Origin: Branchiostoma floridae
Taxonomy: Eukaryota > Chordata > Leptocardii > Amphioxiformes > Branchiostomatidae
DNA length: 64,000 nt
Direction: 5' to 3'
Assembly (NCBI RefSeq): GCF_000003815.2
Contig: NC_049983.1
Location: forward strand, 2,172,310-2,236,309
The notes below the pieces were generated by a model. That model was not told the origin of the DNA and searched no databases. It saw only the letters and a list, made by a program, of their open reading frames with translations. Below, piece after piece: positions 8,401 to 64,000 of this stretch; the stretch's first letter is position 1; every line of letters begins with the position of its first letter. Position numbers and translations under genes: made by a program.

Positions 8401-8512
8401 ATGATGTTACGATTGAGGTTGACCTGCACCTTTCTGGCTATTATAACAATGGGTGTGTACTGGGAGAACGGCGCTACGGCTTTGAACAAAACACAGTTGA
8501 ACAACATAGCCA
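8401..8512 (+). CDS. Gene A exon 1: start codon and signal peptide
   Basis: Tandem ATGs at 8401 and 8404 open a 112-nt exon ending A|GTAAGT (phase 1). The peptide starts MMLRLRLTC and has a hydrophobic core (TFLAIITMGVYW), then small and polar residues (ENGATALNKT), as in a signal peptide with cleavage near the GATA stretch. The tail LNKTQLNNIA starts the heptad pattern continued by exon 2. The same exon is found at 37838 and 57060 with near-identical length and phase, which is strong evidence that it is real. Either Met could start; the first is preceded by TTTTTG, the second by ATG. Confidence 0.85.
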
Positions 8513-8696
8513 GTAAGTACTTAATGTGTTAAACAATATACTAATGCGTGTATTAATAAGTAAGGGTAGGGTAGTGTTGAATATCAGTTGAATAACAGCG
8601 TTGGTGACGATGTGTCATGCCAGTGTTATATTCTGCAATGACTGCATTTTGTGGTGTAGTGTTGCATTTGCTGTTATTAATTACTAATGCATGTCT

Positions 8697-9189
8697 TAAG
8701 CTTAGTTTGTTTGTTTGAACCTTGATTTATTCATGAGAAGCTCAGATCGGCCAGAAGGCCGCATTTCACTGAGGTCATGAGGGAGGTAAGGGTCAGATAA
8801 AATATAACAGAGATACAGATTACATTGAGTACTGATAAATCCACCAACATATATCACTAAACATACATGGTACAAAACATATAGTGGTGCAAGAAGCTCA
8901 GTGTTCATACTCCGTGTCCGTTCGTTTTGGTCATTACTTTTACTTCAAGAGTCTCTTAAAACAGGTCAGGTTTGGAGTCGTATGTATGCCTGGTGGTTGG
9001 TTGTTCCAGACATTGGGTCCACGGTAAGCTATTGGTCCTCTGAAGGTCTCTCGCTTAGGTTTTGGGACAACCAGTTGACTACTTGTGCTTTGTCTGGTTG
9101 TCCGTGTACTCTGGTCCCTGCAGTACACAAACATCTGGCGCATGTAGGGTGGTAGTTTGCAGTTTAGGGCCTTGTAGACTAGCATGTCT
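8697..9189 (-). mobile_element. 5'-truncated non-LTR retrotransposon with 8-bp target duplication
   Basis: The minus strand encodes a reverse-transcriptase C-terminal tail at 8940-9185 containing KRETFRGPIAYRGPNVWN, a motif usual at the end of CR1/RTE-like ORF2 proteins. Flanking GCATGTCT occurs at 8689-8696 and 9182-9189. The matching introns of genes B and C lack the insert, so it landed in gene A after the duplication. It has no catalytic core and is dead. Confidence 0.7.
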
Positions 9190-9630
9190 AATATGTAAGA
9201 GTTGGTAATGGTCAGGAAGTACCACTGTAAATATTTTACATTGTTTGCAGATCAATGTGTATACATTTCATTGTTGTATAACGCGAAGATATTACAGATA
9301 TGTCAAGTATGAATGGCGTTTCTACATTTCATATACATTGTACAAATACCTTCTTTATACCTTCGGCCATTTATGCCATAGCAAGCCCCGCTGAGAGCAA
9401 AAAAAAGAGCAAAAACAAACGTAAATAAGTGACCGTAGGTAACATACTCTGTAGCGTATTTATGGTTTCGAACACATTTTTAATGCAAACATATAAATTA
9501 TGCAACAGATGAAGGTCAGTAAGTGATACAGTAATAAGTACCATACCGTTGACACATGAGCTGTATGAGTCAAAATTAATATTTTCCTAACATAAATGAA
9601 TAACTATGTAACGTTTTACACCATGTACAG

Positions 9631-9768
9631 GGAGAATCACACAGATCCGTGTGAAAATCGACAGAATCACCTTTGGGATGGCGAACACCAGTCTTTCCCT
9701 CCAGTCTATGGCGAACACAGGGTTTCCACGTGTGATTCCGGTTAGCACTACACAAACTACACAAACAG
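9631..9768 (+). CDS. Gene A exon 2: coiled-coil stalk
   Basis: The acceptor TGTACAG and donor G|GTAGGT frame 138 nt (46 codons, phase 1-1). The peptide reads RITQIRVKIDRITFGMANTS, then SLQSMANTG, then a Thr-rich tail. Joined to exon 1, hydrophobic residues L-I-I-I-I-I-M-(T)-L-M fall at alternating 3 and 4 spacing, the pattern of a parallel coiled coil. The likely role is oligomerisation of the secreted protein. The tail carries TTQTTQT, possible O-glycan sites. It is conserved at 39020 and 57684. No named domain is recognised. Confidence 0.8.
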
Positions 9769-10129
9769 GTAGGTAATTACTACTTATGAATGTACAAGTT
9801 TGCCACGTGACGCATGTTTTTTGTACACATTTTCTTGGAAATACATGTGGCCATGGTGCGGTAGATATGGTGTGGGTATGTAATCTATCAAGATCATAAC
9901 TTGAGAAGGTGAGGACTTGAGAAGTACCAGTTGTAGACAGGAAGGTCAGGTTCAAAAATGGTTTCCCTACCGTTTTCGTACAGTACAGCAGGGTCTGTGT
10001 ATGTATGTATGTGTGTTTGTTTGTTTGTGGACAGCACTAAATGGACGGATAAAATAGAACTTCCTGCTGCAAACACACGTTCATGCAGTTGTTACCTGCA
10101 TGTATGCAGGTATGGTTTTTAATGGGCGT

Positions 10130-13117: not shown

Positions 13118-13291
13118 TTGATGGCGGCTGGTCTGACTGGAGCCCATGGTCTGCCTGCAGCGTGACGTGTGGAGTCGGTACGCAGACTCGGGACCGAAGC
13201 TGCACCAATCCGGCACCAGAGCACGGCGGAGCGGAGTGTGATGGAGATACTCAGGAGACACAAGAATGCGACTCGGGAGTTTCCTGTCCAG
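13118..13291 (+). CDS. Gene A exon 3: TSP1 domain 1
   Basis: 174 nt, phase 1-1, between CATGTAG and G|GTAATT. It encodes [19 protein letters not shown], then GTQTRDRSC and ending DSGVSCP. All six Cys of a thrombospondin type 1 repeat are present. WSDWSPW carries WxxW C-mannosylation sites, and CSVTCG is the O-fucosylation and glycan-binding motif. Length, phase and sequence match the other five exons of this subtype in the window. It faces exon 2 upstream and a second TSP1 1.0 kb downstream. Confidence 0.92.
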
Positions 13292-14311: not shown

Positions 14312-14485
14312 TTGATGGTGACTGGTCTGACTGGGGCCCATGGTCTGACTGCAGCATGACGTGTGGAGTCGGTACGCAGACTCGGGACCGGAGCTGCACC
14401 AATCCGGCACCAGCTAACGGCGGGGCGGAGTGTGATGGAGATGCTGAGGAGACCCAAGAGTGCGACCCGGGAGTTTCATGCCGGG
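14312..14485 (+). CDS. Gene A exon 4: TSP1 domain 2
   Basis: 174 nt, phase 1-1, acceptor CATGTAG, donor CGGG|GTAACT read as CGG G|GT. It encodes VDGDWSDWGPWSDCSMTCG and ends DPGVSCR. Six Cys and the CSxTCG motif are intact. It is more like exon 40576 of gene B than exon 3, so the TSP1 pair predates the gene duplications. Confidence 0.92.
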
Positions 14486-16324: not shown

Positions 16325-16636
16325 GTATCCGACTCGTGGGTGGACAATCGTCCATCAGGGGAGGCAGGGTTGAAGTGTACCATGACGGACAGTTGGGGAC
16401 CGTCTGTGACGACGGTTTTGACATAAACGACGCCCACGTGGTCTGCCGTCAGCTGGGATACCTCATTGCTGCCGAGGCCCGATCTCAAGCAGCCTTCGGG
16501 GCGGGGACAGGCCCGATCTGGCTGGACAACTTGGCCTGCGGGGGTTCCGAGACAAACATCGGGGACTGCAGCCACAACGGATGGGGCACACATAACTGCG
16601 GGCACAGTGAGGACGCTGGTGTCGTCTGCACGGACG
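16325..16636 (+). CDS. Gene A exon 5: SRCR domain 1
   Basis: 312 nt (104 codons), phase 1-1, acceptor TTTCTCAG, donor GACG|GTGAGA. It starts [18 protein letters not shown] and ends DAGVVCTDG. It has six Cys (TVC, VVC, LAC, GDC, HNC, VVC); the two extra Cys of classic eight-Cys domains are replaced (RGG and LGY). One exon encodes the whole domain. It has one residue more than the other SRCR exons here. Expected to be an extracellular ligand-binding domain. Confidence 0.93.
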
Positions 16637-17206: not shown

Positions 17207-17515
17207 ACATGAGACTCGTGGGTGGACGTTCGTCCAGCGAGGGCAGGGTTGAAGTGTACCATGGCGGACAGTGGGGGACCGTCTGTGACGACGATTTTGA
17301 CCTGAACGACGCCCACGTGGTCTGCCGTCGGCTAGGGTACGAAGGCGCTGCCGAGGCCCGATCTCAAGCTGACTTTGGGGCGGGATCAGACCCGATCTGG
17401 CTGGACAATTTGGCCTGCGAGGGTTCCGAGACAACCATCGGTGACTGCAGCCATAACGGTTGGGGCTCACATAACTGTCAGCACAATGAGGACGCTGGTG
17501 TGGTCTGCCAAAAGT
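17207..17515 (+). CDS. Gene A exon 6: SRCR domain 2
   Basis: 309 nt (103 codons), phase 1-1, acceptor TTTTTTCAG, donor AAGT|GTGAGT. It starts [20 protein letters not shown] and ends DAGVVCQK, with six Cys and [11 protein letters not shown]. Met replaces the usual Ile at the domain start, so its ATG is not a start codon. The first base of the split codon is T, which joined to the next exon gives TGT (Cys), an extra cysteine between domains. The closest relative in the window is 62310-62618 of gene C. Confidence 0.93.
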
Positions 17516-18978: not shown

Positions 18979-19287
18979 GTATCCGACTCGTGGGAGGAAG
19001 TTCGTCCATGGAGGGCAGGGTTGAAGTTTACCATGACGGGCGGTGGGGGACCGTCTGTGACGACAGTTTTGACATGACTGACGCCCACGTGGTCTGTCGT
19101 GAGCTGGGATACGGAGGCGCTGCCGAGGTCCGAGGATCAGCAGCCTTCGGGGAGGGGTCCGACCTGATCTGGCTGGACGATTTGGCCTGTGGGGGTTCCG
19201 AGACAAACGTCGAATACTGCAGGCACAGCGGATGGGGTTCACATAACTGTGGGCACAGTGAGGACGCTGGTGTTGTCTGCCAGAAAG
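18979..19287 (+). CDS. Gene A exon 7: SRCR domain 3
   Basis: 309 nt, phase 1-1, acceptor TTTTTTTCAG, donor AAAG|GTGATT. It starts [20 protein letters not shown] and ends DAGVVCQK. Six Cys; [14 protein letters not shown] and [17 protein letters not shown] are characteristic. Intact. Confidence 0.93.
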
Positions 19288-21096: not shown

Positions 21097-21405
21097 CCAT
21101 CCGACTCGTGGGTGGAAGTTCCTCCAATGAGGGCAGGGTTGAAGTGTACGATAACGGACAGTGGGGGACCGTCTGTGACGACGAATTTGACATGAACGAC
21201 GCCCAAGTGGTCTGCCGTCAGCTGGGATACGGAGGCGCTGACGACGCCCGATCTGACGCAGCCTTCGGGGCGGGGTCAGACCCGATCTGGCTGGACAACT
21301 TGGCCTGCGGGGGTTCCGAGTCAAGCATCGAATACTGCAGGCACAACGGATGGGGCACACATAACTGTGGGCACAATGAGGACGCTGGTGTGGTCTGCTC
21401 GGTCG
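21097..21405 (+). CDS. Gene A exon 8: SRCR domain 4
   Basis: 309 nt, phase 1-1, acceptor TATTTCAG, donor GTCG|GTGAGT. It starts [20 protein letters not shown] and ends DAGVVCSVG. Six Cys are present and the domain is complete. DNG replaces the usual HDG or YDG, and [15 protein letters not shown] marks it as a distinct paralogue. Confidence 0.93.
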
Positions 21406-36433: not shown

Positions 36434-36452
36434 GTCACTTATTGAATCTCAT

Positions 36453-44780: not shown

Positions 44781-44794
44781 ACATGCATTTTCAG

Positions 44795-44953
44795 CCCTCG
44801 CAAAAATGTGGACCCGCAGCCCCACCGGGTGCCAGTGTTACTGGGACCACCGGCGGTGGGACTGCGCGTGTTGCGAGGATGGCGGGTGCCAGTGTTACCA
44901 CGACAACCCGCACCAGTGTGTGCGCTGCGGCTACGGGGCTGACTGTGGAAGGC
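44795..44953 (+). CDS. Gene B exon 7: unrecognised cysteine-rich module
   Basis: 159 nt (53 codons), phase 1-1, acceptor CATTTTCAG, donor AGGC|GTACGT. It reads SPTGCQCYWDHRRWDCACCE then DGGCQCYHDNPHQCVRCGYG and ADCGR. It has eleven Cys in about 40 residues: CQC, CACC, CQC, CxxC and one final Cys. I do not recognise the family. The two GCQCY motifs suggest an internal duplication. It joins the TSP1 and kringle exons in frame. The acceptor lies in minisatellite-adjacent DNA, and partial copies follow at 45114 and 45318. Confidence 0.65.
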
Positions 44954-46712: not shown

Positions 46713-47454
46713 TTAATCAAAAGTATTAAATTGAGTACAAGGTTGGTTCTCCTTAACGGGGGTGCAGTTTCTCACAGAGGAAAGGGGGGGGGGGGGCAAT
46801 TAATTGGCCTGTAAAATAAAACTCTTTAGATCAATGTAACTTTGAAAAAGTTTTTTTTGGATATTTCAAATTACCTATTATCTGCAATTACAGAATAGGA
46901 GTGTCATAGTCACGACATGTACTCAAACCGTTTCTGTAAATTCATTTTATAAAGAAATTAGGTGCTATCTTGCATGCCACAAACACTGTGATACCTTGTT
47001 AATGCTGAATGACAACCCTTGTGTTGCATTTTACTAGTTAAGGGTCATGTGAATATTCATGCATAACTATATTCAAGCTGGTGTGTTACTCCGAACGGCT
47101 ATATAGATACAGATACAAATACAGAACTACGTCATATTACGTAAAAGTGATATAAAGCTTTACGAGTCATAAAACTTGACGAACGTATCATCCCCTGCAA
47201 ATTTGGTGATCGTACAGCAAGACGTTTTGAACCACGAATGCAAGATTAAGTCAACAATTTGAAACGATAGAACGCACATGAGTTACAACTGCCATGTCAG
47301 TAGCATTCAGCTCGTGTGCTGCACAAAAAGCCATGCTCTATAACACCACGTCTGCTTTCAAACCATGTCCTATCCAAACTTGCTTATACCTTAGTCGAAA
47401 ATCAAGACAGTGTGTGTTAATACTGTGTTTTTTTTTTTAAATTGGGTCAACCAG
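46713..47454. other. Rest of gene B intron before kringle 1
   Basis: 46740-47080 is similar to 41218-41382 and to 59700-59945 (GATACCTTGTTAATGCTGAA, GAATATTCATGCATA), an intronic sequence shared by the units. No exon is seen. Confidence 0.55.
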
Positions 47455-47703
47455 GACAGGCAGAAGATTGCCAGGAGGGAAATGGAGCGTCCTACCGAGG
47501 AACTGTCTCTGTGACCGCATCAGGCAGGACGTGTCAACGCTGGGACAGTCAGTTTCCTCATATACACGTCAAGACACCAGCTAATCACCCATCATCCGGA
47601 CTGGAGCACAACTACTGCCGGAACCCGGACGGCGAACACGGAATCTGGTGCTACACCACGGATCTCTTCAAGAGATATGAGTATTGTGACGGTCCATTCT
47701 GTG
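47455..47703 (+). CDS. Gene B exon 8: kringle domain 1
   Basis: 249 nt, phase 1-1, acceptor CAACCAG, donor TGTG|GTACGT. Nearly identical to 30454-30702; residue changes include Ile to Val after YRGT and Val to Gly in YCDGPFCG. Six Cys are intact. The few changes point to recent duplication or gene conversion. Confidence 0.93.
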
Positions 47704-48219
47704 GTACGTAAGGTCTACTGTTATGTAACCTTTTGGCCACACCAATTTAATTTCTTGCTTCTCGGATTTTTCAGAAAAATATTGAGTCGGTCGGTCGAAA
47801 AAAAAGACACCAAAAAAATTGCAAAAAGTCTGGGGTGAACTTATATAACACAAAAAACAAGGTTAGTAGTCAAGTTTTCAGCTTTCCATGGCATAATTTA
47901 TCCAATGAAACTCTTAATTTGATTTTTTTTACACGTCTGCAAGAGCAAAACCTATATTTCTTGCGACTTAATTTTTTTCCAAATTCGAAAAAAATGGGTC
48001 GGGATATCCGGGAAGCAACCAATTAAATTGGTGTGGCCTTACATGAAAATGTTATGATCTATCATCTGTACTACATCTGCTCCTCGATTTTAATCTTTTA
48101 TATGATTGGCTTATTTCATGATGGTAGATCTTTCGTGTGACATATGTGACCAGTGTTTAACAGAGGAATAACAAGCCAAAATAGGTCATGGTGGTGACAG
48201 CCTACAATTATAGAACAAA

Positions 48220-48626
48220 TTCAATAACCATATTCAGACTTAGGCCTATTTAGACCTGTTTCAACTTTCTTGTCGCATACGCCCGAATGGCTTACGGCAG
48301 ACATTTCCTATAATGTTATCCAATCTTGAAAGATATTCTTGATAAAATGAGGTTTTCTTTACGTAATAAGATAGCAGTAATGTGGCACATAAACATGAAA
48401 AATACATTCTTTTTGTTAGAACTAAAATTAGCCATTTTCGTCAAAAATACCGGTCAACAAATAGTTGCAATGGTAATCCGAAAAACAAAGAAAAGTGTCC
48501 AAGCCTGCTAAAATCGTTGCCAACTAAATGTTAGGAAATCTTACAAAATTTGGTGGCTCTAGCGTACGCAGTTCTAAAGATATGCGACATGAAAGTTGGC
48601 TCAGGCCTCTCTATCCGAATTGGGTT
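48220..48626 (+). mobile_element. MITE remnant, duplicate of 31266-31685
   Basis: Same diverged TTAACCCTAT-family copy at the same place in the duplicated block. Confidence 0.5.
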
Positions 48627-48827
48627 AAATAGTCGACAAGTCAAACGATTTCACCAGATAGTAGCACATGAGTTACCGGTGCCCTGTCAGTACCATTCAT
48701 CTCGTGTGTCCTGCATGGCAGGCTATGCACCATGACTCATAACCATGTCCTTCACAAACTTGCATATACCAATCTTGAAACTCAAGACAGCGTGTGTTAA
48801 TACTACATTTTAACTTTCATCAACTAG

Positions 48828-49067
48828 GAGGTTGCCAGGAGGGGAATGGAGCGTCCTACCGAGGAACTGTCTCTATGACCGCATCAGGCAGGACGTGTCA
48901 ACGCTGGGACATTAGGTTTCCTCATATCCACGACAACACGCCTGCTAATAAACCATCATCCGGACTGAATGGGAACTACTGCCGGAATCCTGACGGCTCA
49001 CAGAGAGTTTGGTGCTACACCATAGACCTCTTCATGAGATGGGAGTACTGTGACGTACCAACTTGTG
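48828..49067 (+). CDS. Gene B exon 9: kringle domain 2, probable C-terminus
   Basis: 240 nt, acceptor TCAACTAG, ending YCDVPTCG. Against 31882 it differs in DENF to NGNY, D to A in TPAN and F to T before the last Cys. Read-through stops at TGA 49073-49075 (Gly-Asn-Val), the same as in gene A. Six Cys are intact. Confidence 0.92.
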
Positions 49068-49265
49068 GTAATGTCTGATTATGTAACCTAAGCTCTGTCA
49101 TATGATCTTTATTCATCTGTACTAACCACTACATCTGCTCCGCAACGTTTCAATTTTTTATACACATCAATCAGTCATTATATAACCTCCGTAAGACGTA
49201 CGTCAATACTATTAAAATATGCTATTGGACTAAGGAATCTATTTTTGTATCTTTACGGTAGATGT

Positions 49266-49525
49266 GGGACCGCGTGGCGCAATCGTCAGCACGTTTGACT
49301 CAGGTCCAGAAGGTTCTGAGTTCAAACCCCGCCGTGTCACCGATCTTGTGCCCTTGGGAAAGGCACTTTACACGACTTTCCTATATAGGCTACAAAAGTT
49401 TTCAGCAAATTGAAGTTGGTAGCCTCAAAAACGGAAGAAAACGGAAGAGATGTTGTAGAGGCAGTAAGGGGCAATATAACCCCGTCGTGTGTAAACACAT
49501 CGGCCGATGATGATGATGATTGATC
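49266..49525 (+). mobile_element. tRNA-headed SINE, duplicate of 32319
   Basis: Same insertion as at 32319, carried by the segmental duplication, with a shorter (GAT)n tail. Confidence 0.8.
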
Positions 49526-49792
49526 ACCCCTTGTATCTACTTTGTGTTGATGTACATGCAGTCGCTGCACGGTATTCTGACAACAGTTAGGGCGTTTCAA
49601 ACATACATTAACAAGTATATTTGCCTTTGTAAATCATCCTGCATCGTTTATGCCTTTCCTAAAGGCAATGTCCTTAATGTCCTAGACCACTTCATATCTT
49701 GATAGCGATTCTAATATATCAGAAAAAATCGGATGTTTGCTCATGTAACTTACATTAACCAATCCTTCCTTTTCCAACAGGGCGGTAATCCT

Positions 49793-51559
49793 GAGGAGCA
49801 CATTGGATTAAAACTCGTGTGGGGTACCAATGTGCAGTGCTGGTCAGAACCCACCGGTTACCAACAAGGGACTTCACACATCAGTGTAATCTATTCATTA
49901 TTGATATGCATAGCTGCACAAAGAAACACTCACCTGAGTTTTAACACCTCATTTATGCGGTGTTAAAACTATAGGGCTAAAATGGGCTGATTTTCTTATT
50001 GTGTTCTGTTGCAAATTAAACTCATTTGGTTCCATTCAATTTCATTTCTTGCATAGTCAGATAAAAAGTGAACAATAGTAGTACCTTTAATTTATTCAGC
50101 CCCTTTAACCAACCAACATCAACTTGTAAGACTGTTTCAAGACTGTTTGAGCCCAGTTTATTGGGTTCTCAGACCAATCTGCATTGGTAGTGTCACATGA
50201 ACGATATATGTATAAATTATGTAAGTACGAAATGCTTCAACAGCCAACGATTCGTCTGCCAGGCACCTCCACTTGGAGACAAAGCGTTAAAACGAACAAA
50301 GCGTCAAAACGAACATCGCAAGAACTATTCAAAAGTTATATTTAAATGACAGATCGCAATAATTCCCCAAATTCTGCCATATACATATTAGAATCACACT
50401 CTTAACCCATTATACTGTGTACGATAATTGTATCCATTTCTTTCACCAAAATTCAGTCTTATGACTGCAAGTGTGATGTGTTGTTTGCGATGTCAGTATT
50501 AAAGAAATCACTCATAGTACACTGTCATTCTCGTATATGACTGTTTAGCCACAGTCGACGCTGTAGTTTAAAGTTCGGAACTTACTTGGAAAGTCACAGA
50601 CCGTCAATACTGCCGAAAAAAGGATCGGACTATCACAACAGAAACTGTGATAAATATCGACATGTCAAATGTAGGACTGACAGACTAAGAAACTCACCGA
50701 TACCCTATGTTGTGCGCCTTTTAAATTCTTAATGACGTGTCTCTAAGGATATCTGTTGTGATTTTAAAGTGTTGCTACACGCACTTGTTTTGGGTTTATC
50801 GATGTCAGAATTTTAAATGTTATTTCAGTGTTTGAAATAGATCTATAATTGATGATATAGATGTTTAATATTATGAATTAGTTTTGGCTGGAAGTTGTTC
50901 AGATGTCGGAGAAAGACCATCCATCGACAGCAAAAAAAGCAAGCGATGGTAGCTTTTTATTCGGTCATTAGGTTATTAATAATTAGAAATAAGACAGGAA
51001 TTCTATTTGTTTGACTTGCATTTCAAATATGATAGAAATATCATGTGCAGTCACAGACTGTAAAGCAGTCTAAGAAAAATACTTTCTTCGATTTTGCGTC
51101 TTTTTATCAAATTGTTTTACTGAACGATACAGTTCTGACATGTGTTCATGCTATGCCTGACTTAACATGAATCTACATGGTATATAATGTCGGCACAAAC
51201 ACTTTCGAATATCAACTTTGGTATATCATATTTCCGTTATTTCTGCATAAATTTCAATGTATTACATGTCAATGAAAAAGCTTGTGTGATTCCCTTTCTT
51301 ATGGTATCAAACTTACTATGATTGTTAACTCATGAAAGGAGCACCAGGCCTGCTTACATGAGTGGGTCACCAAAAAAAGTGCGCAAATTCCCCTGCTTCT
51401 GTTCAACACTGTATTGTCCTGTTGGTATTTGTCGCGTGTCAGTGATTCAACCATCGCGTGCCAGTGATTCAACCAAACCTATTTTAGGTCACGTAAGGTA
51501 TACAGAACATACAAGTTTGTTTTAGCACATGTGAGTAGAATATATGTGCCATTTTGGCA
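49793..51559. other. Downstream of gene B, duplicated non-coding DNA
   Basis: Includes the counterpart of the possible terminal exon (CAACAG at 49787-49792, then GGCGGTAATCC) with the same in-frame TAA. The rest matches 33150-34550. No gene is recognised. Confidence 0.5.
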
Positions 51560-51880
51560 GTTGGATGGCCAAATCAAAGCGTGGAGGTCGAGGCGGCAAG
51601 AAGAACCACACGCTGACATGATTGTTGAAGAATAACTTTTTAGCGTTTGGTGGTGGATGCAGTTGTGTGGAGCGGAATAAACGCCATAGGAAAAGCAAGA
51701 CTCGTCATCATTCCAGGCAACTTCAATGTTGTTAAATATATGGACACCATCCTCCATCCAGGCGCAATATCCTTCCTCTTCAATATTGGACCAAATGTCA
51801 TTCTGCAATATGACAACACCTGTCCACACAAAGCAAGGACCATTGCAGACTACATCCATGATGCTGGGGCACAGGAAGAA
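51560..51880 (+). pseudogene. Tc1-like transposase remnant, copy 2
   Basis: Same fragment as 34553-34938: VVWSGINAIGKARLVIIPGN and NVILQYDNTCPHKARTIADY. HKA here is nearer the usual transposase motif (RPHxA) than copy 1. It ends at the insertion junction. Confidence 0.75.
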
Positions 51881-54760
51881 CTAGAAAGGCCGACATTTGC
51901 TTAAGAGCAAATACAGCATATTTCAGCCATACCCCTTCCCACGCAACATTGGACTGTTCCAAATCACCCCTGCGCAAAAATGGAACATCCTCTTAATTAA
52001 CAGTACATTATCCCCCAAAGTGGACTGGTATTGTGAATTGATTCCAGGTAAAAACAGAGCTTGCTTCTATTTTTCAGAAAATGACAATAATCACACCTTC
52101 CATTCGGAAAATTTTCATCATGACTGAAAATTGTTGAATGACTTCATGTAATGTCATTAACAATCTTCAGTACGATAACTAGGTGTAAGTTTAAAAAAGT
52201 ATAAGCTCCTTGTGATGTGGGTACATTTATTATTGCAGTGAACTTTTTTTATTCAAGTAGGGCATACGATTTAATAATCATCAAGCAGGTGCAGGTACTG
52301 TAGGAGCGTTTGTTTTCTTCAAGCTGTAAAACTGTTAAACTGTTTTACTTTGTATGCAATCAGCCATCGAGCCTATTCTTATTTTAGTTTAACAACTTCC
52401 TGCCAGACACGGAAGATATGATTGAACTTTGTTCGAGGATTTATTTTCGTCTGTCTGGTCAGTCTGTTCATACCCTGGCGCTGAGAGTGTTTTATTGGGC
52501 TGAAACTCTGGCAGTTTAAAGTTACTTACGATTTAAATGTTCAAAGTTTATGTCAAACAACAACAGCACTAGGAAATGTGGCCACTATAGACAGGTGGTC
52601 ACTATAGAGAAAATGCTGATCTATTGACTAGGAGCCATACGTTACACATGATTTCAGAACACTGATCATTAATCATATAAACATTGCACAGGTAAGCCAA
52701 TTGTTTAGATGTACAATTAAGTTCAAATAATTCTGAAGAGATATATTGATGAGAAAATAATCATTCTCGCCACTGTCTAACTTATAATTACGTATCAAAA
52801 CTAAACGCAGATTTTCTAACAAACGCACCTTTCGCCGACTTCATCAAAGGACCGCCGGCTATCAATCAAACACGGCTGTTGATTAGACTTAGAGTTTCAA
52901 ACAGTCATGTGCTGTGTGCCAGTGGACAGCGAACTTCATGCTACGTGATGTTTTACATTGCTTGGACCTTCTTTCCTACAGCGGTGCTTCTACAAAATAT
53001 TTAGACTGTAACACTGAGTCCCACATGTTTTATAGAATAGAATTTGACGCAGAACAGCGTTTTTTGCTGGGTATTTTTCTTGAAACATGTCCGTGGGAAT
53101 ATCAGCGGGGCGGCGACGTAGGGATATCAGACCGTCAACAAAAGTCGCACGGCGGCTAACGGCGCAGCGAAGATACTAGCGCTATAAATAATCGCTTCAA
53201 CTAAGGATGTCAACCCGTACAATATTTTTGTATACTGTTGAGCTAAGTAAAGTTTGTAGTTTATGAGGTTTTAGTTGTCTTTGAAGCTTTGACCCGAAAT
53301 ATTTTAAAGTCAAACTGCTGAAGAGAAGTAAGTGACAGCTACGATTATCGTAGATATGACCCTAAAAAAACTGATAAAAGAAGCCTTCTCAATAGTCTAA
53401 AATGCAAGAGCTTCCGGGGGGGGGGGGGGGCTTCGTCCACCTGGGTCCCCCCCACAGTGACCCTGCCCCTGGACCCCGCCAGGGACATTCGGCGGCCCCC
53501 GGACCCCTGTCCGACGAGTCTTCAAGTTATCGTATTGTGTGGTCCCGCTTATGAATATTAATTAGCCTTCGCTTTCCTCTTCGCTGATTGGCTGAACCAT
53601 TAATTGAATTAACTCTTCCTGCCGGCTAGACGCAGGTGCAGATGTCGGCTCTGTTTGGTGAACGTCCGAAAGGTCATGGCATGGAGAACGAAAGAAAACC
53701 AATTTCCCCTATAAAAAAGTGCTGTAATTAAGCCCTTTACAGTACTTTATGCCAAAAATTTTACTTGGATCATTTTACCAACTATCTTATGCCTATCTAT
53801 ACCAAACGTTACTCATACCAGGGTACAGGGGTGCAAAAAATACCGTTATAAGACCGTCAACAACAGTCGCACGGAGCTAACAGCGCAGCGAAAATACCAT
53901 CGCTAGCGTTTCAACTTCGGATAACAAGTTATAAGTACTGTTGAACTCAGTAACGTTAAAGTTTGTTTTTAGTTGCCTTTGACGGTTTGACCTGAAATAG
54001 TGTTACGCTAAACTCCTGAAGAGAAGTTAAGTGACTGCTGCGATTATCATAGATATGCCCCTAAGAACTGATACAATATAAGGCCTTCTGAATAGTCTAA
54101 AATGCGAGAGCCTTAGGCGGGCTTCGCTCCCCCTGGCGGGAACACTGCTATATACGAGATCATGAGGCCCCGCTTATGAATATTAATTAGCCTTTGGCCT
54201 CCTCTTCGCTGATTGGCTAGGTCTTTGATTCAATTAACTCTCCGGCTGACGCGCACAGGTGTGGCTCTGTGCGGGGTCACGGAAGGTCACACCAGGAGGC
54301 CAAGAGAAAACAAGTTACCCCTCAGAAAAGTGCCAAAATTAATCATTTTAAAGTAGTTTATGTCAAAAATTTTACTTGGATAATTTTACCAACTATCTAA
54401 TGCCTATCTACACTAAATTTCAGGCCATTCCATTGTAAGACCAGGGTACAGGGGGACAATATATTTTATTTTGGTCAAAACATGACCTTGAAACCTCAAT
54501 AAAATCATTTTAGAGGCAGATATGACAAAAACTGAGAAAAGCATCAAGGTATTGGCCCATTCTACCCCTGTGCCAAATTTCAGGTCATTCGGTCCAGGAA
54601 CGGTGGAGATGAATCACTTTGAAGATTTGACAGGAGAAAGAAGAAAGAAAGAAAGAAGAAACATTACGAATACAATATATTTCACCATACTATGTATGGC
54701 TGAAATATAAACATTACGAATACAATATATTTCACCATACTATATATGGCTGAAATATAA
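51881..54760 (+). mobile_element. 2.88 kb insertion in the duplicated block
   Basis: Copy 1 reads GGAAGAA|ATAGCC (34947); here GGAAGAA is followed by 2880 bp before ATAGCC resumes. The insert begins CTAGAAAGGCCGACATTTGC, has ATATTTCAGCCA at 51918 and the inverted TGGCTGAAATAT at 54747, and shares both ends with 24191-25620. Inside, about 53130-53830 and 53850-54500 are related direct repeats (GTCGCACGG, GGCGCAGCGAA, GCTTCGCTCC or GCTTCGTCC). The final 50 bp is doubled (54661-54710, 54711-54760). No transposase frame is recognised. Confidence 0.75.
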
Positions 54761-55190
54761 ATAGCCTTCCTACGGTTTAGGGCTAGCACTCGATTAAACA
54801 CGTCTTGGTTCAAATTGTTTGCTTGAATAAAAAGTTACAGTGGCTTTGATTGACATGCCCTGTTAATACAACTTTTTTTATTCACAAGTCAATGCCGACC
54901 GAAAAAAATTAGCTGAATGGAGTGTTTCACTTTAGTAACTTAAAGGTAATTTCGGCACTTTCTTTTTGTTTTGTGACCCTCCTGTATGTTAGCAGGTGCT
55001 CTTACCATGAATTTACAATGATTATCATAAAATACTTAACTAAAATTAAAGTAAACTTGGGTGTTCTGTATACCATAAGGTACATACTAAAATCTATTAG
55101 ATTGACTGAATCATTGTCACCCACGGCCATAACAACCGGACGATACAGTGTTGACAGAAGCGGGGGAATTTGGGCACTTTCCTTCAGGAA

Positions 55191-55780
55191 GCCAGAAAAA
55201 CTGCACAGCGTCACCAAAACGGCCATTTCTAGTCTTATACGTGCATAATATAACCGTGGCAACCATCGTACTAGTGGTGGTAACGTTTGTTAAAGAATCT
55301 GGCGACAGGCATAAACCAACGATAAATACTAGTTTTTTTTTAATCAAATTCCGTCAAAATCTTTTATTTTCTTACAAAACACAATCATTTGAACCTTTTT
55401 AGTCCACTTCCATTGGGTTTTGGGGTTACATGTGGAGAAAGTCGTATTTTAGAAAATTCAAGCTTGTCGATCCAAGATGACGGACAAATGACGTCACTTT
55501 CTGACGTCATATTGACGTCAGTGTCGTCGTCATTGGCAACAAAAGTTTTGGCAGACTTAGACACCAATACGATAACCTTTATAGTCATCGTTTTCTTAAA
55601 CACATTTAAGTATAGCGGAAATTTCATATGTAGACGATTTTAGCCTAAAATATGACATTATGACGTCATAATTACGTCCTATTACGTCATAACGATACCA
55701 AACTTACAGAATATATAAAACTTTACTAGTACATCATCCCCTCTAAATTTGGTGATCGTTTGGTTTTGATGATGTTACAT
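55191..55780. other. End of unit 2, MITE remnant
   Basis: 55400-55755 carries TGACGTCA motifs of the MITE family (ACGTCACTTTCTGACGTCAT). It ends with TTTGGTTTTGATGATGTTACA (55759-55779), the scrap of promoter and exon 1 that marks the unit junction. Confidence 0.55.
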
Positions 55781-57059
55781 TAGTTTCATTTCTTTTAATT
55801 CTTAATAATTCTTAATCAAAAGAAAACTGCCAGCCACGTTGTTTCTGGAAGGTTTAACCCGTTTACAAAACCTGTACAGTTCGGTTTACAAACACTTAGT
55901 GCCCTTACTTATAATGTGTATCATTCATGTGCTTAGCATCAATGTGTGTTCAGAGAAAACAACTTCCAAACTAGAGTTCGGCAATCTCATAACATAATGA
56001 CATACTAATAGATTTTATGCAAGTTACTTAATCATTTGCATAATTCATGCATGTAGATATTTGCCTTCAACTAACACATTATAGTCTCTATCATTTATCT
56101 TTAAGCAGTTTTGACAATTTTGTATAAATTTTCAAATTAGTTCCTTAGTTGCATGTTTGGTATTTTTTCATGCACCACCTGTAATGAATTCTTGTTATAT
56201 TTATTGAAAACCAGTTAGACATAATAGTCCGCCATTTTGGATCATTAACCTTACATGAACATTCTCGATCTATTTTTTTAAATCTTTTGTGATTATTTCT
56301 TGCAAAAAATATTTTTGAAAAATTCGAGCTAGTGGATATAAGATGATGGAGCCCAACTGGTATCTTATATATGCATGACTTAATTTTATGAAGAAATTTT
56401 GACCTCATTGATAATGATATTGGCAACAAAGGTCCACCATTCTGTTACCTGCACTTGCTGTTACATTTTGTAGCATACCTTAAAGTTTTCTGGGAATGCT
56501 CCTTTTTAACGATTCCAGCCAGTACAGTCAAATTGATGATGTCATAATCACGTCAAGTTAGATCATCATAGCGTCTGCATTCTTAGAATCTTATGATATT
56601 ATGTCTGCATCATTCTCTTAAAATTTGGCGGCCATAGATTAATGTGTTAAAGAGTTAAACAGGAGTCAGAAGGTTGGGCCTCAAAAGAAGACAACACCCA
56701 CCACCCCCTCCCCTTCCTGTCCTTGGAAGACTAAAAAGCCTGAATAGGTTTAATGTAATTTTAACACATTCATTTCGCCTGATACACCCCGGGAGGCGAC
56801 TTGGTAAATCGCTTAATTGGTTCGATAATGGGACATGGTATAGGTTACGTAATTAGGGGCACTAGAAGTTAATGAGTTTTCGGGTTGTTATGTTAACCAA
56901 CAAGTTGAAAGAAACGTCTTGCAAGCAAAGGTTTTTATCACTACCAACATGATTAGGCTGAACATAGTATCTGTCTACTTTTAGAACTGAGCGAAACATT
57001 CTGGCTAGGGAAATTGTTGATCTGTTTCCTGTAGATACAAAGTTGAAAGGTTTGTTTTG
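55781..57059 (+). promoter_or_regulatory. Conserved upstream block of gene C
   Basis: Collinear with 36713-37837, more complete (it includes the ATAAGATGATGGAGCCCAAC section also at 7676 before gene A). GGAGGCGACTTGGTAAATCGC lies at about 56791. Promoter and 5' UTR are presumed here. Confidence 0.45.
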
Positions 57060-57171
57060 ATGATGTTACAATTGAGGTTGACGTGCACCTTTCTGGCTAT
57101 TATGACACTGGGTGTGCACTGGAAGAACGGCACAGAAGCTTTGAACAAAACACGGTTGAGCAACATAGCCA
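57060..57171 (+). CDS. Gene C exon 1: start codon and signal peptide
   Basis: 112 nt, ATGATG to A|GTAAGT. It starts MMLQLRLTCTFLAIMTLGVH and continues WKNGTEALNKT, RLSNIA. It keeps the gene B-like QLRLTC start and the gene A-like FLAI core. Probably cleaved near NGTEA. Confidence 0.85.
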
Positions 57172-57683: not shown

Positions 57684-57821
57684 GTAGAATCACGCATGTC
57701 GGAGTGAAAATCGACAGAATCACCTTGAAGGTGGCGAACACCAGTCTTTCTCTGCAGTCTATGGCGAACACAAGTTTTCCACGTGTGATTCCGGTCAACG
57801 TTACACAAGCTACACAAACAC
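57684..57821 (+). CDS. Gene C exon 2: coiled-coil stalk
   Basis: 138 nt, phase 1-1, acceptor TGTACAG, donor C|GTAGGT. It reads RITHVGVKIDRITLKVANTS then SLQSMANTSFPRVIPVNVTQ. Heptads are kept; one Arg is replaced by Gly (HVG). NVT is shared with gene B. Confidence 0.8.
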
Positions 57822-58717: not shown

Positions 58718-58891
58718 TTGATGGCGGATTGTCTGACTGGAGCCCATGGTCTGCCTGCAGCGTAACGTGTGGAGTCGGTATGCAGACTCGGGACCGAAGC
58801 TGCACCAATCCGGCACCAGAGCACGGTGGGGCGGAGTGTGGTGGAGATGCTGAGGAGACACAAGAGTGCGATTCCGGAGTTTCCTGTCCAG
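58718..58891 (+). CDS. Gene C exon 3: TSP1 domain 1, first Trp lost
   Basis: 174 nt, phase 1-1, acceptor CATGTAG, donor CCAG|GTAATT. It reads [20 protein letters not shown] and ends DSGVSCP. The first Trp of WxxWxxW is Leu (TTG 58729-58731). Six Cys and CSVTCG remain. Nearest to 13118. Confidence 0.92.
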
Positions 58892-59219: not shown

Positions 59220-59393
59220 TTGGTGGCGGCTGGTCTGACTGGAGCCCATGGTCTGACTGCAGCATGATGTGTGGAGTCGGTACGCAGACTCGGGACCGAA
59301 GCTGCACCAATCCGTCACCAGCTAACGGCGGGGCGGAGTGTGATGGAGATACTGAGGAGACACAAGAGTGCGACCCGGGAGTGTCCTGTCGGG
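59220..59393 (+). CDS. Gene C exon 4: TSP1 domain 2, fucose site lost
   Basis: 174 nt, phase 1-1, acceptor TTATGTAG, donor CGGG|GTAACT read as CGG G|GT. It reads [20 protein letters not shown] and ends DPGVSCR. ATG at 59267-59269 replaces the Thr codon of CSMTCG, removing the O-fucosylation residue. Six Cys are intact. Nearest to 14312. Confidence 0.9.
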
Positions 59394-60241: not shown

Positions 60242-60550
60242 GCATCCGACTCGTGGGTGGACGTTCGTCAAGGAGGGGCAGGGTTGAAGTGTACCATGGC
60301 GGACAGTGGGGGACCGTCTGTGACGACGATTTTGACATGAACGACGCCAGCGTGATCTCCCGTCAGCTGGGGTTCGTATTCGCTGCCGAGGCCCGATCTG
60401 ATGCAGCCTTCGGGGCAGGATCAGACCCGACCTGGCTGGACAACTTGGCCTGCGAGGGTTCCGAGACAAACATCGGACACTGTGGCCACAACGGATGGGG
60501 CTCACATAACTGTGGGCACAGTGAGGACGCTGGTGTGGTCTGCACGGACG
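60242..60550 (+). CDS. Gene C exon 5: SRCR domain 1, one Cys lost
   Basis: 309 nt, phase 1-1, acceptor CTTTTTTCAG, donor GACG|GTGAGT. It starts [20 protein letters not shown] and ends DAGVVCTDG. The second of the six Cys is Ser (TCC 60358-60360, ASVISRQLGF), leaving its usual C-terminal partner unpaired. A Trp-Leu core ([12 protein letters not shown]) remains. Corresponds to 16325 of gene A. Confidence 0.92.
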
Positions 60551-60583
60551 GTGAGTCAAGAGTTTTTGCTCTTGCGTTTCGTC

Positions 60584-60966: not shown

Positions 60967-61212
60967 GTTTTGTCACTTTCCCATACAATTTCCGTTCCAA
61001 ACTATCGTCTAAAAGGTGTTTCTTAAACAGGTGAAATATTAATAGAATAATCGTTTTATCCCAAATTTTCCCTAAGCCTCATTGCAAGTGACCAGGAAAA
61101 AATATCTTCACTTGTTGTTATATTTTTGTTGTATAACTTAAGTTTTCTGAGAACACTGCATTTCCATGATCCCAAGTATCGGTCATATTTGACTTTATAT
61201 CACATTGTAATA

Positions 61213-62035
61213 CAGTCAAACCTGTCCGAGCGACCACCTCTTCTCAGCGACCACCTGGCCATTTCGACCGCTTTTTCTCGGTCCCGAGTTTTTTTTTCCA
61301 TTGACGTAAGCATTAAGCGACCTTTTCTCAACGACCACCTCGCCAACGCGACCGCGACCAGCCCGAATTGGGACCCATAACGACCGCATCATTTTCAAAA
61401 TTGAGGCTTTCATCGACTTATAATGATAACCAGCGCAATTTTGTGCCGAAATCCGAATTTAGTTGTTACAGAAGTTTTTTTTTAAATCTATATCATTATA
61501 AAGTGAACGAATGCTGAAACGTATATATAGCCTCATACTTTTTTAAGAAAGATCTGTGTAGCTTATACCTTTTTAAGAAAGATCTGTACGTGTGAGTGCT
61601 TTTGTCTAATTGTACTGTACATTTACCCGTGGGTAAGTACGCTATAGGGACGCACCGGGCATCGAATTCGAGAAGTGCACCGTAATTATTTCAGATCAAG
61701 AACATAGCGACGCATAAAGGCTTGAATGGTAACTGACAGCATCAAAGTTCCCTTACTGTCCAAAACGTTAGTGTATAGATACGCTGTATCGGATAAAAGC
61801 TCGATAAAAGCTTGGGGTTAAATTTACAATTACAGTGTGCGTGTTGTATTTGACATTAAAGACCTCGCTTCTTTGCGTGCGTGCAGTGTGCTTGCCATTT
61901 GCCATTAAACACAACGGAAACCATTTATACTTTGCATCGGGCAGGTTTTGAGTCGATACTCTTCTCAGCGACCACCTGCCCAAATCGACCACTTTTTCCG
62001 GTCCCCCGGGTGGTCGTCTTGGACATGTTTGACTG
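61213..62035. mobile_element. pogo/Tigger-like non-autonomous element
   Basis: CAGTCAAACCTGTCCGAGCG at the left and inverted ..TTGGACATGTTTGACTG at the right, each bordered by TA. CGACCACCT-type motifs recur several times inside each end (61219, 61238, 61328, 61968). TA targets and CAGT ends fit the pogo branch of Tc1/mariner. About 820 bp, no transposase. Confidence 0.65.
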
Positions 62036-62309
62036 TATATTATTGCCACATCATTATCTTTAAACGAGATGTCACACAATAAATCGTTAAATAGTAAGAT
62101 CAGTCTCAAAAGAAATTGACAGAAATAGGGTTATGTTGCCCTTTTTTTACATTGTGACTAGAAAATAATTCCATAGACATTGCAAAAATCCACCAAACAG
62201 GTGACAAGTAAAACTTCAGCTCGAAAGGAAAATAGATTTGAATCGAACAAAAAAAACATGAAGTTGTAAAATAACTTTCAATTATATGTCCACATCGTCT
62301 TTTTTTCAG

Positions 62310-62618
62310 ACATCCGACTCGTTGGTGGACGTTCATCAAGCGAGGGCAGGGTTGAAGTGTACTATGACGGACAGTGGGGGACCGTCTGTGACGACGATTT
62401 TGACATGAACGACGCCCACGTGGTCTGCCGTCAGCTGGGATACGGAAGTGCTGCCGAGGCCCGATCTCAAGCTGCCTTTGGGGAGGGGTCAGACCCGATC
62501 TGGCTGGACAACTTGGCCTGCGGGGGTTCCGAGACAAACATCGGTAACTGCAGCCACAACGGATGGGGCTCACATAACTGTGGGCACAGTGAGGACGCTG
62601 GTGTGGTCTGCCTAAAGA
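62310..62618 (+). CDS. Gene C exon 6: SRCR domain 2
   Basis: 309 nt, phase 1-1, acceptor TTTTTTTCAG, donor AAGA|GTAGGT. It starts [20 protein letters not shown] and ends DAGVVCLK. Six Cys, complete. GTAGGT is a weaker donor than the GTGAGT of gene A's counterpart (17207). The open frame ends at a TGA 10 bp past the donor. Confidence 0.92.
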
Positions 62619-64000
62619 GTAGGTGAATAGTTTTCATTTTAAGTGATGTACAGAATGACATTTCCAAACCATCAGCATGATTGACTATAAAATGGACGAC
62701 GTCCAAGATTTTGTCCATGCTAAAAAATACCAGACCCCCTCTCGCATGACACAGAGCTCCAACAAACAAGATTACCTGGAAGAATGGTAAGCTTACTGAG
62801 CACACAAAGATCAAGATCAACAGAGCCTTTGTCGTGAGCAACATCCTCTACTGCATTGAGTCTTGTCCCTTGCCTTATTCTCAAAGCAGAGGTTAGGCTC
62901 CGTTTGTATTTTTAATACCCTTTTCCAGACGTTTAATTGGGCTTTCTATTTTGTCATTTTTCTTGAAGTCCGCCAGTCATTACAAGATCCAATACAAGAT
63001 AGAAAGCCCGATAAAAAAGACTAAAAAAAAGGAAGAAACTAGAGTTCGGCGACCTAATACCTCCATGAATATTAAGAGCTTTTGTAAATTTCAAGCAATT
63101 GACTGATACATTAACATAATTTATGCATGGCATTGTTCACCATTGACTAACGTACACGTGTCACAATAATAAAATTTCCATCATTAATTATTAAGCGGTT
63201 TAGCAATTTTTACATAAATTTTCCAAATACGTTCCTCATTACCATATTTGGTATCTGCTTATAATCCACCCATCATAACTAACAGGTGTTGCATTTATTG
63301 AAGTCCAGTCATTGAAAACAATCGAATTAAACAATTTCCAAATTAACAAATTAATTATGCAAATTAATTCCTCATTTGCATAACATGCATATCATTATGA
63401 ACATCTTTGCCCAAGCTACCTGCATGCCTAATATGATGATAATCCCTCAATCCTTTCTGCAGTTATCCTTTTTGGAATGTATTGACAAAAACGCCCCTGC
63501 AGTTCCCAAATTAAATTTTAGGGAGCTGAAACTTGGTTTACTTTGTCATGACACAAAAAGCTATCTACCGCTTAAATGTCAAGACCATAGCATGTCTAGA
63601 ACAAGACATACATTGAAAAAAATGCTATTACAGAAAATTACCATTTATTATGCAAATGTGCTCCTATTTTGCATAAATAGTATTTTATCTTGTACAACAT
63701 TGTCTAAGGTACCTACATACAAAAAATCATGAAAATCCGCTGTTCCCTTCCTGAGAAGTTCTCCTCTTCAGAAGCTTTTGACAAAAATGCCCCTGCTATC
63801 CCAAAACTAGACGCTAGGGGGCCCAAAATTATGTGACTTATTTCTGAGCACAAGAGCTATCTAACATTCGAATATCGTGACCATAGTATGTTCAGAACAC
63901 CCAGATAGCAAAACCGGAAGTTGCACTGCAGTACAAAGGGGATTCGCTAGGGGGCCCAAAATCTAAAAATTTCCAGCTTTCATCACACACTACCAACACA
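62619..64000. other. Gene C intron 6 (incomplete)
   Basis: 62640-63040 matches 17530-18130 of gene A without the 117-bp insert and with a decayed fold-back element. 63040-63420 is an AT-rich dispersed repeat (AAACTAGAGTTCGGC, ATTTGCATAA) also seen at 6630, 36900 and 55970. 63480-64000 has two copies of a unit of about 300 bp (TTGACAAAAANGCCCCTGC, CAAAAAGCTATCTA or CAAGAGCTATCTA). No exon is visible. Confidence 0.55.

Follow-up and report, generated by a model that had tools for sequence, protein, structure and literature searches.

Genes A, B and C, which lie in a window of 64,000 nucleotides of the Branchiostoma floridae genome (the whole stretch analyzed; contig NC_049983.1, positions 2,172,310 to 2,236,309), probably belong, as neighbors, to a multigene family of the lancelet that encodes secreted recognition proteins, oligomerized by a coiled coil, in which one base carries exchangeable heads. 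A first-pass annotation of the window had described three tandem genes with a common N-terminal start and different extracellular modules; its observation is partly confirmed and its interpretation, a family that keeps an oligomerizing base and varies its binding heads, is partly supported.

The Start Cassette

Each gene begins with a signal exon and a coil ('stalk') exon (Table 1), together referred to as the start cassette. The first-pass annotation had reported these exons three times, each time followed by two TSP1 exons, and this holds: all three cassettes are present with phase-1 splice sites, and the adjoining TSP1 exons are recognized by Pfam in A and B and by a local profile for the rest. 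Compared pairwise, the three genes are 82-88% identical in exon 1 and 85-89% identical in exon 2, and the dN/dS of the cassette ranges from 0.37 to 0.81. A search of the 513 Mb genome with the coil exon of gene A returned 16 matches at E<=10. Seven of these lie on C5, so that three cassettes within 48 kb are not a matter of chance. At E<=2e-6 seven matches were obtained, including A itself.

Judged by simple rules rather than by a dedicated signal predictor, exon 1 combines a short hydrophobic core with -3/-1 cleavage sites (ATA↓LN in gene A). Exon 1 would encode the signal peptide together with the beginning of an amphipathic helix, and exon 2 the remainder of this helix, followed by the motif MA-x-x-[GS]-[FL]-P and a Thr-rich linker. 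The amphipathic helix is about three and a half heptads long. Its heptad pattern was matched by 5 of 100000 column shuffles and the register is identical in all 13 cassettes of the genome in which signal and coil exon could be joined. A coil from C3 was modeled as a single helix (2-29, pLDDT 86), but a window coil modeled alone gave a helix at a pLDDT of no more than 58.6 (3 sequences). The proposal that the base oligomerizes is supported by the heptad pattern and the single-helix models, the oligomer itself being putative. Ile/Val-rich a and d positions favor, as a rule, a bundle of three chains, and since the coil has such positions, three chains are probable. In the averaged hydrophobic profile, a period of 2.3 exceeds that of 3.5-3.6 (53 vs 36); a period of 2.33 is the third harmonic of the heptad, but a twisted strand is also near that period.

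No family was found for the cassette in Pfam and none of note in NCBIfam, and a PDB search returned non-significant matches alone, several of them helical. The accessible open literature on such architectures yielded no description of the cassette.

Head Modules and Assembly Gaps

Pfam identified TSP_1 in one cassette-adjoining exon each of gene A (3.6e-17) and gene B (4.1e-16) and in the third and fourth TSP1 exons of gene B (3.2e-11 and 5.6e-14), while the other TSP1 exons of the window were identified by a local profile that was itself derived from the window's own exons. SRCR (PF00530) was above the cut-off in all three window exons that were run, two from gene A (4.7e-32, 2.7e-33) and one from gene C (5.9e-31). 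The local SRCR profile scored all seven window SRCRs at 197-212 bits, and six of the seven have six Cys, with five in the first SRCR of gene C. The third TSP1 exon of gene B is ruled out as a working exon, because its acceptor AG is missing and a Cys is lost; given the lesions in this exon, in the second TSP1 exon of gene B and in the first SRCR of gene C, gene B or C could be failing. Contig C137 contains a TSP1 match that ends at the same position as the second TSP1 exon of gene B and was considered as an alternative haplotype; the genome search with the gene A coil gave no coil match on C137.

Gene A had been read as five SRCRs plus two kringles, and gene B as other TSP1 exons, a cysteine-rich module and two kringles. 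The five SRCR exons of A and the modules of B are present, apart from the decay of TSP1 exon 3, but both joins to the kringles cross an assembly gap (100 N in A, 101 N in B), so the window sequence does not connect those heads to kringles and the full A and B architectures are not accepted as proven. The return of SRCR exons in gene C is confirmed, with two in the window and a third past its end (C5:2237781-2238083). The cysteine-rich module of gene B has no Pfam match and no significant PDB match; relatives of it are located on contigs C4, C8, C10 and C18.

The two kringles before gene B were identified by Pfam (1.3e-28 and 2.4e-29) and those before gene C by a local profile, and a PDB search with a window kringle gave its best scores for chains of plasminogen and HGF. 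Both kringle tails derive from a single block, with 94.4% identity over 4,538 aligned bases. Tail and promoter copies are about 93-98% identical where they can be aligned (BLAST and sliding alignment), and the drop to about 84% starts inside exon 1 of gene C. A value of 84.8% for the B-C promoter, obtained from a fixed-boundary alignment with mismatched ends, was discarded in favor of the BLAST and sliding alignments. Over 2.8 kb aligned past kringle 2, comparison of the copies gives no sign of constraint for most open frames. A few short frames have dN well below dS (33438-33536, 33685-33789, 33942-34028 and 34557-34691), and an additional exon 3' of kringle 2 is possible.

Table 1. Features of genes A, B and C in the window (position 1 is the first nucleotide of the window)
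Feature	Positions	Strand	Remarks
Gene A exon 1	8401..8512	+	signal peptide and first heptads; phase 1 at end
Gene A exon 2	9631..9768	+	coil ('stalk') exon, phase 1-1
Gene A TSP1 exon 1	13118..13291	+	Pfam/splice sites
Gene A TSP1 exon 2	14312..14485	+	splice sites, local profile
Gene A SRCR 1	16325..16636	+	6 Cys
Gene A SRCR 2	17207..17515	+	two possible phase-1 donors, first intron base 17498 or 17516
Gene A SRCR 3	18979..19287	+	splice sites, local profile
Gene A SRCR 4	21097..21405	+	splice sites, local profile
Gene A SRCR 5	28512..28820	+	final recognized module 5' of N gap
Assembly gap, 100 N, in gene A	29052..29151	.	between SRCR 5 and kringle 1
Copy 1, kringle tail, intergenic and promoter block	30284..37872	+	35357-36690: counterpart not found in copy 2
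Kringle 1, tail before gene B	30445..30702	+	acceptor 30445 or following AG nine bases downstream
Kringle 2, tail before gene B	31882..32132	+	in-frame stop 3 codons past last Cys (GNV*); weak donor after that Cys possible
Gene B exon 1	37838..37949	+	signal peptide
Gene B exon 2	39020..39148	+	coil exon
Gene B TSP1 exon 1	39762..39935	+	Pfam/splice sites
Gene B TSP1 exon 2	40576..40749	+	without last Cys
Gene B TSP1 exon 3	43047..43211	+	decayed: acceptor AG changed to AT, one Cys gone
Gene B TSP1 exon 4	43690..43854	+	intact
Gene B cysteine-rich module	44795..44953	+	no Pfam family; weak splice sites
Assembly gap, 101 N, in gene B	46179..46279	.	between Cys-rich module and kringle 1
Copy 2, same kringle tail/promoter block	47283..57090	+	51875-54758, 55181-55757: counterpart not found in copy 1
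Kringle 1, tail before gene C	47455..47703	+	start approximate; GG where A's kringle 1 acceptor has AG, next AG in frame
Kringle 2, tail before gene C	48828..49078	+	identical GNV stop
Gene C exon 1	57060..57171	+	signal peptide
Gene C exon 2	57684..57821	+	coil exon
Gene C TSP1 exon 1	58718..58891	+	Leu replaces first Trp
Gene C TSP1 exon 2	59220..59393	+	splice sites, local profile
Gene C SRCR 1	60242..60550	+	5 of 6 Cys
Gene C SRCR 2	62310..62618	+	3' end approximate

Cassette Relatives Elsewhere in the Genome

The three cassettes belong to a larger set than the family of three genes that had been proposed, since 17 coil exons are present in the same genome, on the chromosome-sized contigs C3, C5 and C14. 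Pairwise, the coils of C3 and those of C5/C14 match each other weakly (E 0.025-2.5), but a profile of seven C5/C14 coils matched a profile of nine C3 coils with a probability of 97.8% and an E-value of 1.2e-12 over 34 of 35 columns. A signal exon was located within 2.5 kb upstream of 13 of the 17 coil exons (those of A, B and C plus ten at other loci) and was not found for the other four in the sequence searched. This search demanded a phase-1 donor, whereas gap-free joins and a shared donor sequence were not demanded; still, all 13 signal-coil joins align gap-free, and the donor AGTAAGT is identical in 10 of them. Further ATG frames that passed the signal-exon filter were set aside by eye at A (one), C3:10175046 (one) and C3:10147549 (second donor).

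The nearest recognized downstream domain, available for 14 of the 17 coil exons, is TSP1 (3), half of an F-type lectin (7), kringle (1), SRCR (1), SUEL (1) or PAN (1). Recognition relied on the window-built TSP1, SRCR and kringle profiles and on seven probes from coil-adjoining exons, a restricted set by which other domain types would be missed and which makes the assignments for C14 and C5:1988072 partly circular. Pfam placed eight of ten exons of relatives above its curated cut-off, and named the F-type lectin exons of the C3 relatives F5_F8_type_C_2. Linkage is direct at several loci: one open frame spans the coil and the F-type lectin half at C3:10096919 and 10108593, and at C3:10089530 the order signal-coil-kringle-kringle lies in ungapped sequence without N. 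The F-type lectin motif RxDx4[RK] occurs in 10 of the 14 second halves on C3, one of the other four being partly read. For three coil exons (L016, L020 and L029) no recognized domain was found in 1.5 kb downstream. L029 (C5:1905483) is a doubtful member, with E 6.2 to the gene A coil, a search of its own that finds itself alone and a long branch in the tree, and the terminal motif is altered in two of the 17 coil exons, L020 and C5:1905483. The core idea, that the base is retained while the heads vary, is supported, as related two-exon cassettes precede F-type lectin, SUEL lectin, PAN, kringle and SRCR domains elsewhere in the genome.

Alternative Explanations

The genes could instead be ordinary tandem duplicates of an extracellular mosaic protein of the matrix or adhesion type, with the cassette as ancestral 5' end, neutral gain and loss of exons and no recognition role, which we consider unlikely. 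TSP1/SRCR/kringle-type modules are also present in matrix proteins, several exons are damaged, and the dN/dS values of the cassette and of the SRCRs (about 0.33 to 1.2 in 21 pairs) correspond to weak to moderate constraint, with clear positive selection not seen. High domain recombination is moreover general in lancelets, according to PMC4284660. However, the cassette is retained while the heads on three contigs include sugar-binding folds, and most of the second lectin halves on C3 keep the F-type lectin motif. More improbable still is an assembly artefact in which a single region is represented by two haplotypes placed end to end, as contig 2 (after 29151) and contig 3 (after 46279), leaving fewer than three genes. 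In its favor, the tail/promoter divergence of a few per cent is near the lancelet allelic level (SNPs of 4.39% in B. belcheri; PMC4284660), N gaps of about 100 occur at both junctions and the coil tree joins B with C (94/90). Against it, exon 1 of B and C differs at 15%, B-C dS is 0.29 for the cassette and 0.185 for TSP1 whereas dS between the tails is 0.061 for kringle 1 and 0.128 for kringle 2, the modules past the second TSP1 exon differ in kind, and small contigs carry no coil copy in the genome search with the gene A coil.

Comparison With Known Systems

Class A scavenger receptors (SR-A, MARCO, SCARA5) likewise have an oligomerizing rod on the N-terminal side and SRCR heads, and in the PDB the second window SRCR matches the SRCR of MSR1, MARCO and SCARA5, with top scores for CD163 chains that have many SRCRs. 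These receptors are anchored in the membrane in type II orientation and have a collagen-like rod and a single SRCR at the C-terminus, whereas the lancelet genes carry a putative signal peptide of the cleavable type (by simple rules), several SRCRs and TSP1. A collagen stem in the window is ruled out by a motif scan, which in six frames found nowhere as many as 8 consecutive G-x-y. Collectins and ficolins provide soluble multivalent recognition through a trimerizing stem and sugar-binding heads; they are alike in working principle only. The window lacks a collagen repeat, and several head fold types are combined with one kind of stem.

The C3 relatives resemble F-type lectins (fucolectins) in their F-type-lectin-like exon pairs (RxDx4R in 10/14). 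The accessible sections of a review on F-type lectins report domain shuffling, amphioxus mosaics and trimeric organization, and do not describe an N-terminal coil cassette common to SRCR, TSP1 or kringle genes (PMC5712786). The His-to-Arg spacing of the fucose motif, His ... RxDx4(R/K), is 26 in two joins (counted by eye), vs X24 as printed in the review. Lancelet proteins of the neurotrypsin/plasminogen group combine SRCR, kringle, LDLRA, PAN and trypsin domains, and the cassette is not mentioned in the accessible portion of the source (PMC6337849). This group shares SRCR and kringle in one protein, and plasminogen and HGF each have several kringles. The trypsin motifs GDSGG and AAHC are absent from the six frames of the window, which rules out an evident protease as far as motifs go, although the N gaps could hide such a domain.

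Proposed Mechanism and Implications

Under the family reading, the predicted transcripts would yield secreted proteins whose helices most likely bundle, probably as three chains, and bundling would bring several copies of the head domains into one molecule. The heads on this base would be TSP1 and SRCR arrays in the window, plus kringles if the gap joins are correct, and F-type lectin, SUEL lectin, PAN, kringle or SRCR in the relatives. Weak contacts of single domains may in this way add up to strong multivalent binding, with glycans or proteins of microbes or of host debris as ligands, a putative immune function modeled by analogy on collectins and class A scavenger receptors. Since the window modules have phase 1 at both sides, gain, loss or exchange of exons keeps the frame. 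New head combinations on a constant base could then arise when the kringle-tail/promoter block is duplicated or converted, or when exons are copied between chromosomes (the Cys module of gene B).

A variety of combinations alone is unsurprising: the domains TSP1, SRCR, kringle and F-type lectin are mobile, and for lancelets a high level of domain recombination and SRCRs combined in diverse ways are already reported (PMC4284660, PMC2575513). More tentatively, and with somewhat less than even confidence, we suggest a cassette-based soluble recognition system that consists of a secretion and coiled-coil start, with 17 coil exons on C3, C5 and C14 and perhaps a fourth contig, C7, and some seven folds as heads (TSP1, SRCR, kringle, F-type lectin, SUEL lectin, PAN and discoidin-like), in which exchange via homologous tail/promoter blocks and phase-1 exons keeps making new heads on a constant trimeric base. 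If true, the family would clearly exemplify a fixed oligomerizing base that is reused with many binding folds, in an animal that is not known to have rearranging immune receptors. Any lancelet genome or transcriptome can be screened for its two-exon signature, and the change of heads without loss of the stem in multivalent recognition proteins would become testable.

Cassette and head exons of the three genes

The first-pass annotation proposed that one signal exon and one stalk exon recur in three tandem genes, and both are indeed present in A, B and C: exon 1 (112 bases) encodes a signal-like peptide and ends in phase 1 ahead of GTAAGT, and exon 2 (129-138 bases) has phase 1 at both ends. 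Pairwise identity is 82-88% for exon 1 and 85-89% for exon 2. The two TSP1 exons expected after each cassette were seen in all three genes, A's pair is followed by the five SRCR domains described earlier, each in a single exon, and of the SRCR exons said to return in C two lie inside the window and a third immediately past its end. Pfam supported the families of all nine TSP_1, SRCR and Kringle window exons run against it and gave no family for the tenth exon, the Cys-rich module of B. Of the seven SRCR domains in the window, six contain six cysteines; C SRCR 1 has five, one being gone. In B, TSP1 2 is missing its last Cys, and TSP1 3 has AT instead of AG at the acceptor position and lacks one Cys.

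For A and B the proposed architectures stand as regards the head exons, and each proposed head-to-kringle join crosses an N gap. The window consists of three pieces, namely the A head, a kringle tail with the B head, and a second kringle tail with the C head. A 293-residue minus-strand open frame spans the second gap; its gap-free 224-residue part matched no Pfam family.

Positions of features (window: G000:C5:2172310-2236309, plus strand; other contigs in contig coordinates)
Feature	Position	Remarks
Exon 1 of A	8401 (start)	next head TSP1
Exon 1 of B	37838 (start)	next head TSP1
Exon 1 of C	57060 (start)	next head TSP1
Kringle tails	30445-32132; 47455-49078	ahead of B; ahead of C
N gaps	29052-29151; 46179-46279	head exons from kringles in A; in B
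Transposase-like remnants	34695-34945; 51644-51901	Tc1/mariner-like by eye
Minus-strand frame	45504-46385
tRNA-like match	43882-43953	inside ~120-base repeat
Similar repeats	32315-32434; 49263-49382
B Cys-rich module	44795-44953
Its relatives	C18:15210492; C8:12290131, 12302392; C10:13.53-13.58 Mb; C4:21.46 Mb
C14 coil		SUEL lectin, then F-type-lectin-like pair and SRCR
C5 coil	C5:1988072	PAN, then discoidin-like domain
C3 array	C3:10080001-10230000	next head F-type lectin half (7), kringle pair (1), SRCR (1); PAN, kringle or SRCR further downstream
Possible coil	C7:12501105-12501215
TSP1 arrays	C4:34196568-34206272; C314	period ~503 bases

The Cys-rich module of B has about 50 residues with the pattern CxC...CACCxxGGCxC...QCVxCG...CG and is present on five contigs. 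Identity to the C18 relative is 92% over 49 residues; in DNA the exon region is 87% identical (228 bases) and the repeat-rich sequence upstream 76-81%, which is consistent with copying of exon and flanks between chromosomes. The 3' end of the exon recurs twice shortly downstream. The tRNA-like match in Rfam (30.6 bits against a cut-off of 29) lies in a repeat that occurs three times and is probably a SINE of tRNA origin and not a tRNA gene.

The cassette family across the genome

With the 45-residue coil exon of A as query, the genome (513,431,437 bases, 431 contigs) yielded 16 matches with E<=10. These are A, B and C themselves, four further C5 loci, one C14 locus and eight C3 loci; the C3 matches and C5:1905483 are individually weak (E 0.03-6.2). 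A C3 coil query also returned 16, comprising nine C3 coils (C3:10161244 being new), one match on C7, five C5 coils (E 0.025-2.5) and one partial C3 match. The C7 match (E 0.0017) is a possible further coil exon. Ten matches came from the C14 coil query; six of them are C5 coils (E<=1.1e-7) and three are C3 coils (E 1-2.4). C5:1905483, the most divergent coil, matched itself alone. Profile-profile comparison of seven C5/C14 coils with nine C3 coils gave a probability of 97.8% (E 1.2e-12).

Seventeen coil exons were examined: A, B, C, four more on C5, the C14 coil and nine on C3. A signal exon, sought by requiring a donor in phase 1 and a loosely defined end motif, lies within 2.5 kb upstream in 13 of them. 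Outside these search criteria, the donor reads AGTAAGT in 10/13 and all 13 signal-coil joins align gap-free. The coil exons without a signal exon are those of stretches L019 and L020 (<=1.5 kb upstream covered), C3:10161244 and C3:10166386 (preceded by 1.7 kb of N). The C3 region (stretches L030-L044) is a tandem array with nine coil exons, all on the plus strand and seven of them with a recognised signal exon, and with heads of the F-type lectin, PAN, kringle and SRCR types.

Predicted structure of the coil

Over the helix the alignment of the 13 joined cassettes needs no gaps, and columns 7, 10, 14, 17, 21, 24 and 28 are restricted to Ala, Ile, Leu, Met and Val throughout; column 31, the next expected a/d position, breaks this rule. 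The a/d excess over columns 4-31 was equalled in 5 of 100,000 column shuffles, and all 13 sequences chose the same heptad register (shuffle fractions for single sequences, 0 to 0.0096). In the averaged profile a period of 2.3 carries more power than one of 3.5-3.6; a period of 2.33 is a heptad harmonic, and by the periodicity test alone a strand may also fit. AlphaFold predicted, as single chains, a helix at 2-29 for the C3 coil exon (nine sequences, pLDDT 86) and at 2-28 for the window coil exon (three sequences, pLDDT 58.6). As a rule, Ile and Val at a and d positions favour trimers, and from these residues we infer that the coil would form a trimer.

Heads downstream of the coil exons

TSP1, SRCR and kringle domains were sought with window-built profiles, and F-type lectin halves, SUEL, PAN and discoidin-like domains with probes from exons near coils; since the probes were limited to these types, other heads would be missed. 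For 14/17 coil exons the next domain recognised in the same orientation is of an extracellular binding type, and stretches L016, L020 and L029 (the last holding C5:1905483) have no recognised head within the 1.5 kb covered. Eight of ten head exons of relatives exceeded the curated Pfam cut-off, with E-values including SUEL 3.8e-20, kringle 9.5e-29, SRCR 1.7e-13 and PAN 1.6e-6; one C3 PAN and the second lectin half of C14 fell below it. RxDx4[RK] occurs in 10/14 C3 F-type lectin second halves, one of the other four being read in part.

Coil-to-head distances on C3 (n=9) are 117-1871 bases, matched by 55 of 100,000 random nine-position sets. At C3:10096919 and C3:10108593 coil and lectin half share a single open frame, which is the best direct evidence tying the cassette to lectin heads. 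The gene at C3:10089530 reads signal-coil-kringle-kringle with no gap, which lends plausibility to kringle tails in A and B. Long arrays of near-alike TSP1 exons were also observed on C4 and C314.

Evolution and selection

A tree built on 13 cassettes unites A, B and C (97/95), pairs B and C within that group (94/90) and places the three beside two other C5 genes; of its ten inner branches six are drawn open, and C5:1905483 forms a long branch. A and C have the order TSP1-TSP1-SRCR-SRCR in common. Judged by the sequence around the exons, A SRCR 2 corresponds to C SRCR 2 (739 aligned bases plus another 181). By the same measure A SRCR 1 is slightly nearer to C SRCR 1 (403) than to C SRCR 2 (321), whereas the A SRCR 1 exon itself is closer to C SRCR 2.

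Ratios of dN to dS are below 1 for the cassettes of A, B and C (dN 0.108-0.143, dS 0.165-0.292), the paired TSP1 exons (dN 0.043-0.090, dS 0.185-0.228) and the kringles compared between tails (0.011/0.061 and 0.033/0.128). For 21 SRCR pairs dN/dS is about 0.33-1.2, which may reflect relaxed or diversifying selection and is not decisive. A neutral matrix-protein family is one rival reading of these genes.

The kringle tails, the DNA beyond them and the next promoter form two copies of one block, 94.4% identical over 4,538 aligned bases (additional pieces 93%) and broken up by stretches present in one copy alone. In sliding windows up to exon 1 identity is about 93-98%, save one 23-base window at 74%, and it falls to 84% from inside exon 1 onward. 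For the tails, partial haplotype duplication is possible, their divergence being near the allelic SNP rate reported for B. belcheri (4.39%, PMC4284660), but it does not agree with the B-C coding divergence. Remnant transposase-like frames lie at the edge of the conserved block; the copy at 34708-34932 had no significant Pfam match.

Relation to known lancelet proteins

Published work describes SRCR expansions and rich domain recombination in lancelets (PMC2575513, PMC4284660, PMC10855680), mosaic F-type lectins in amphioxus (PMC5712786), and lancelet SRCR-kringle-trypsin proteins (PMC6337849) and APEC proteins with a fucolectin and C-type lectins (PMC12373286). In the text that it covered, our open-literature search found no description of a two-exon start common to these head types. 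The best-supported reading is that the window genes and their relatives constitute a family of recognition proteins, secreted and oligomerised, with a constant base.
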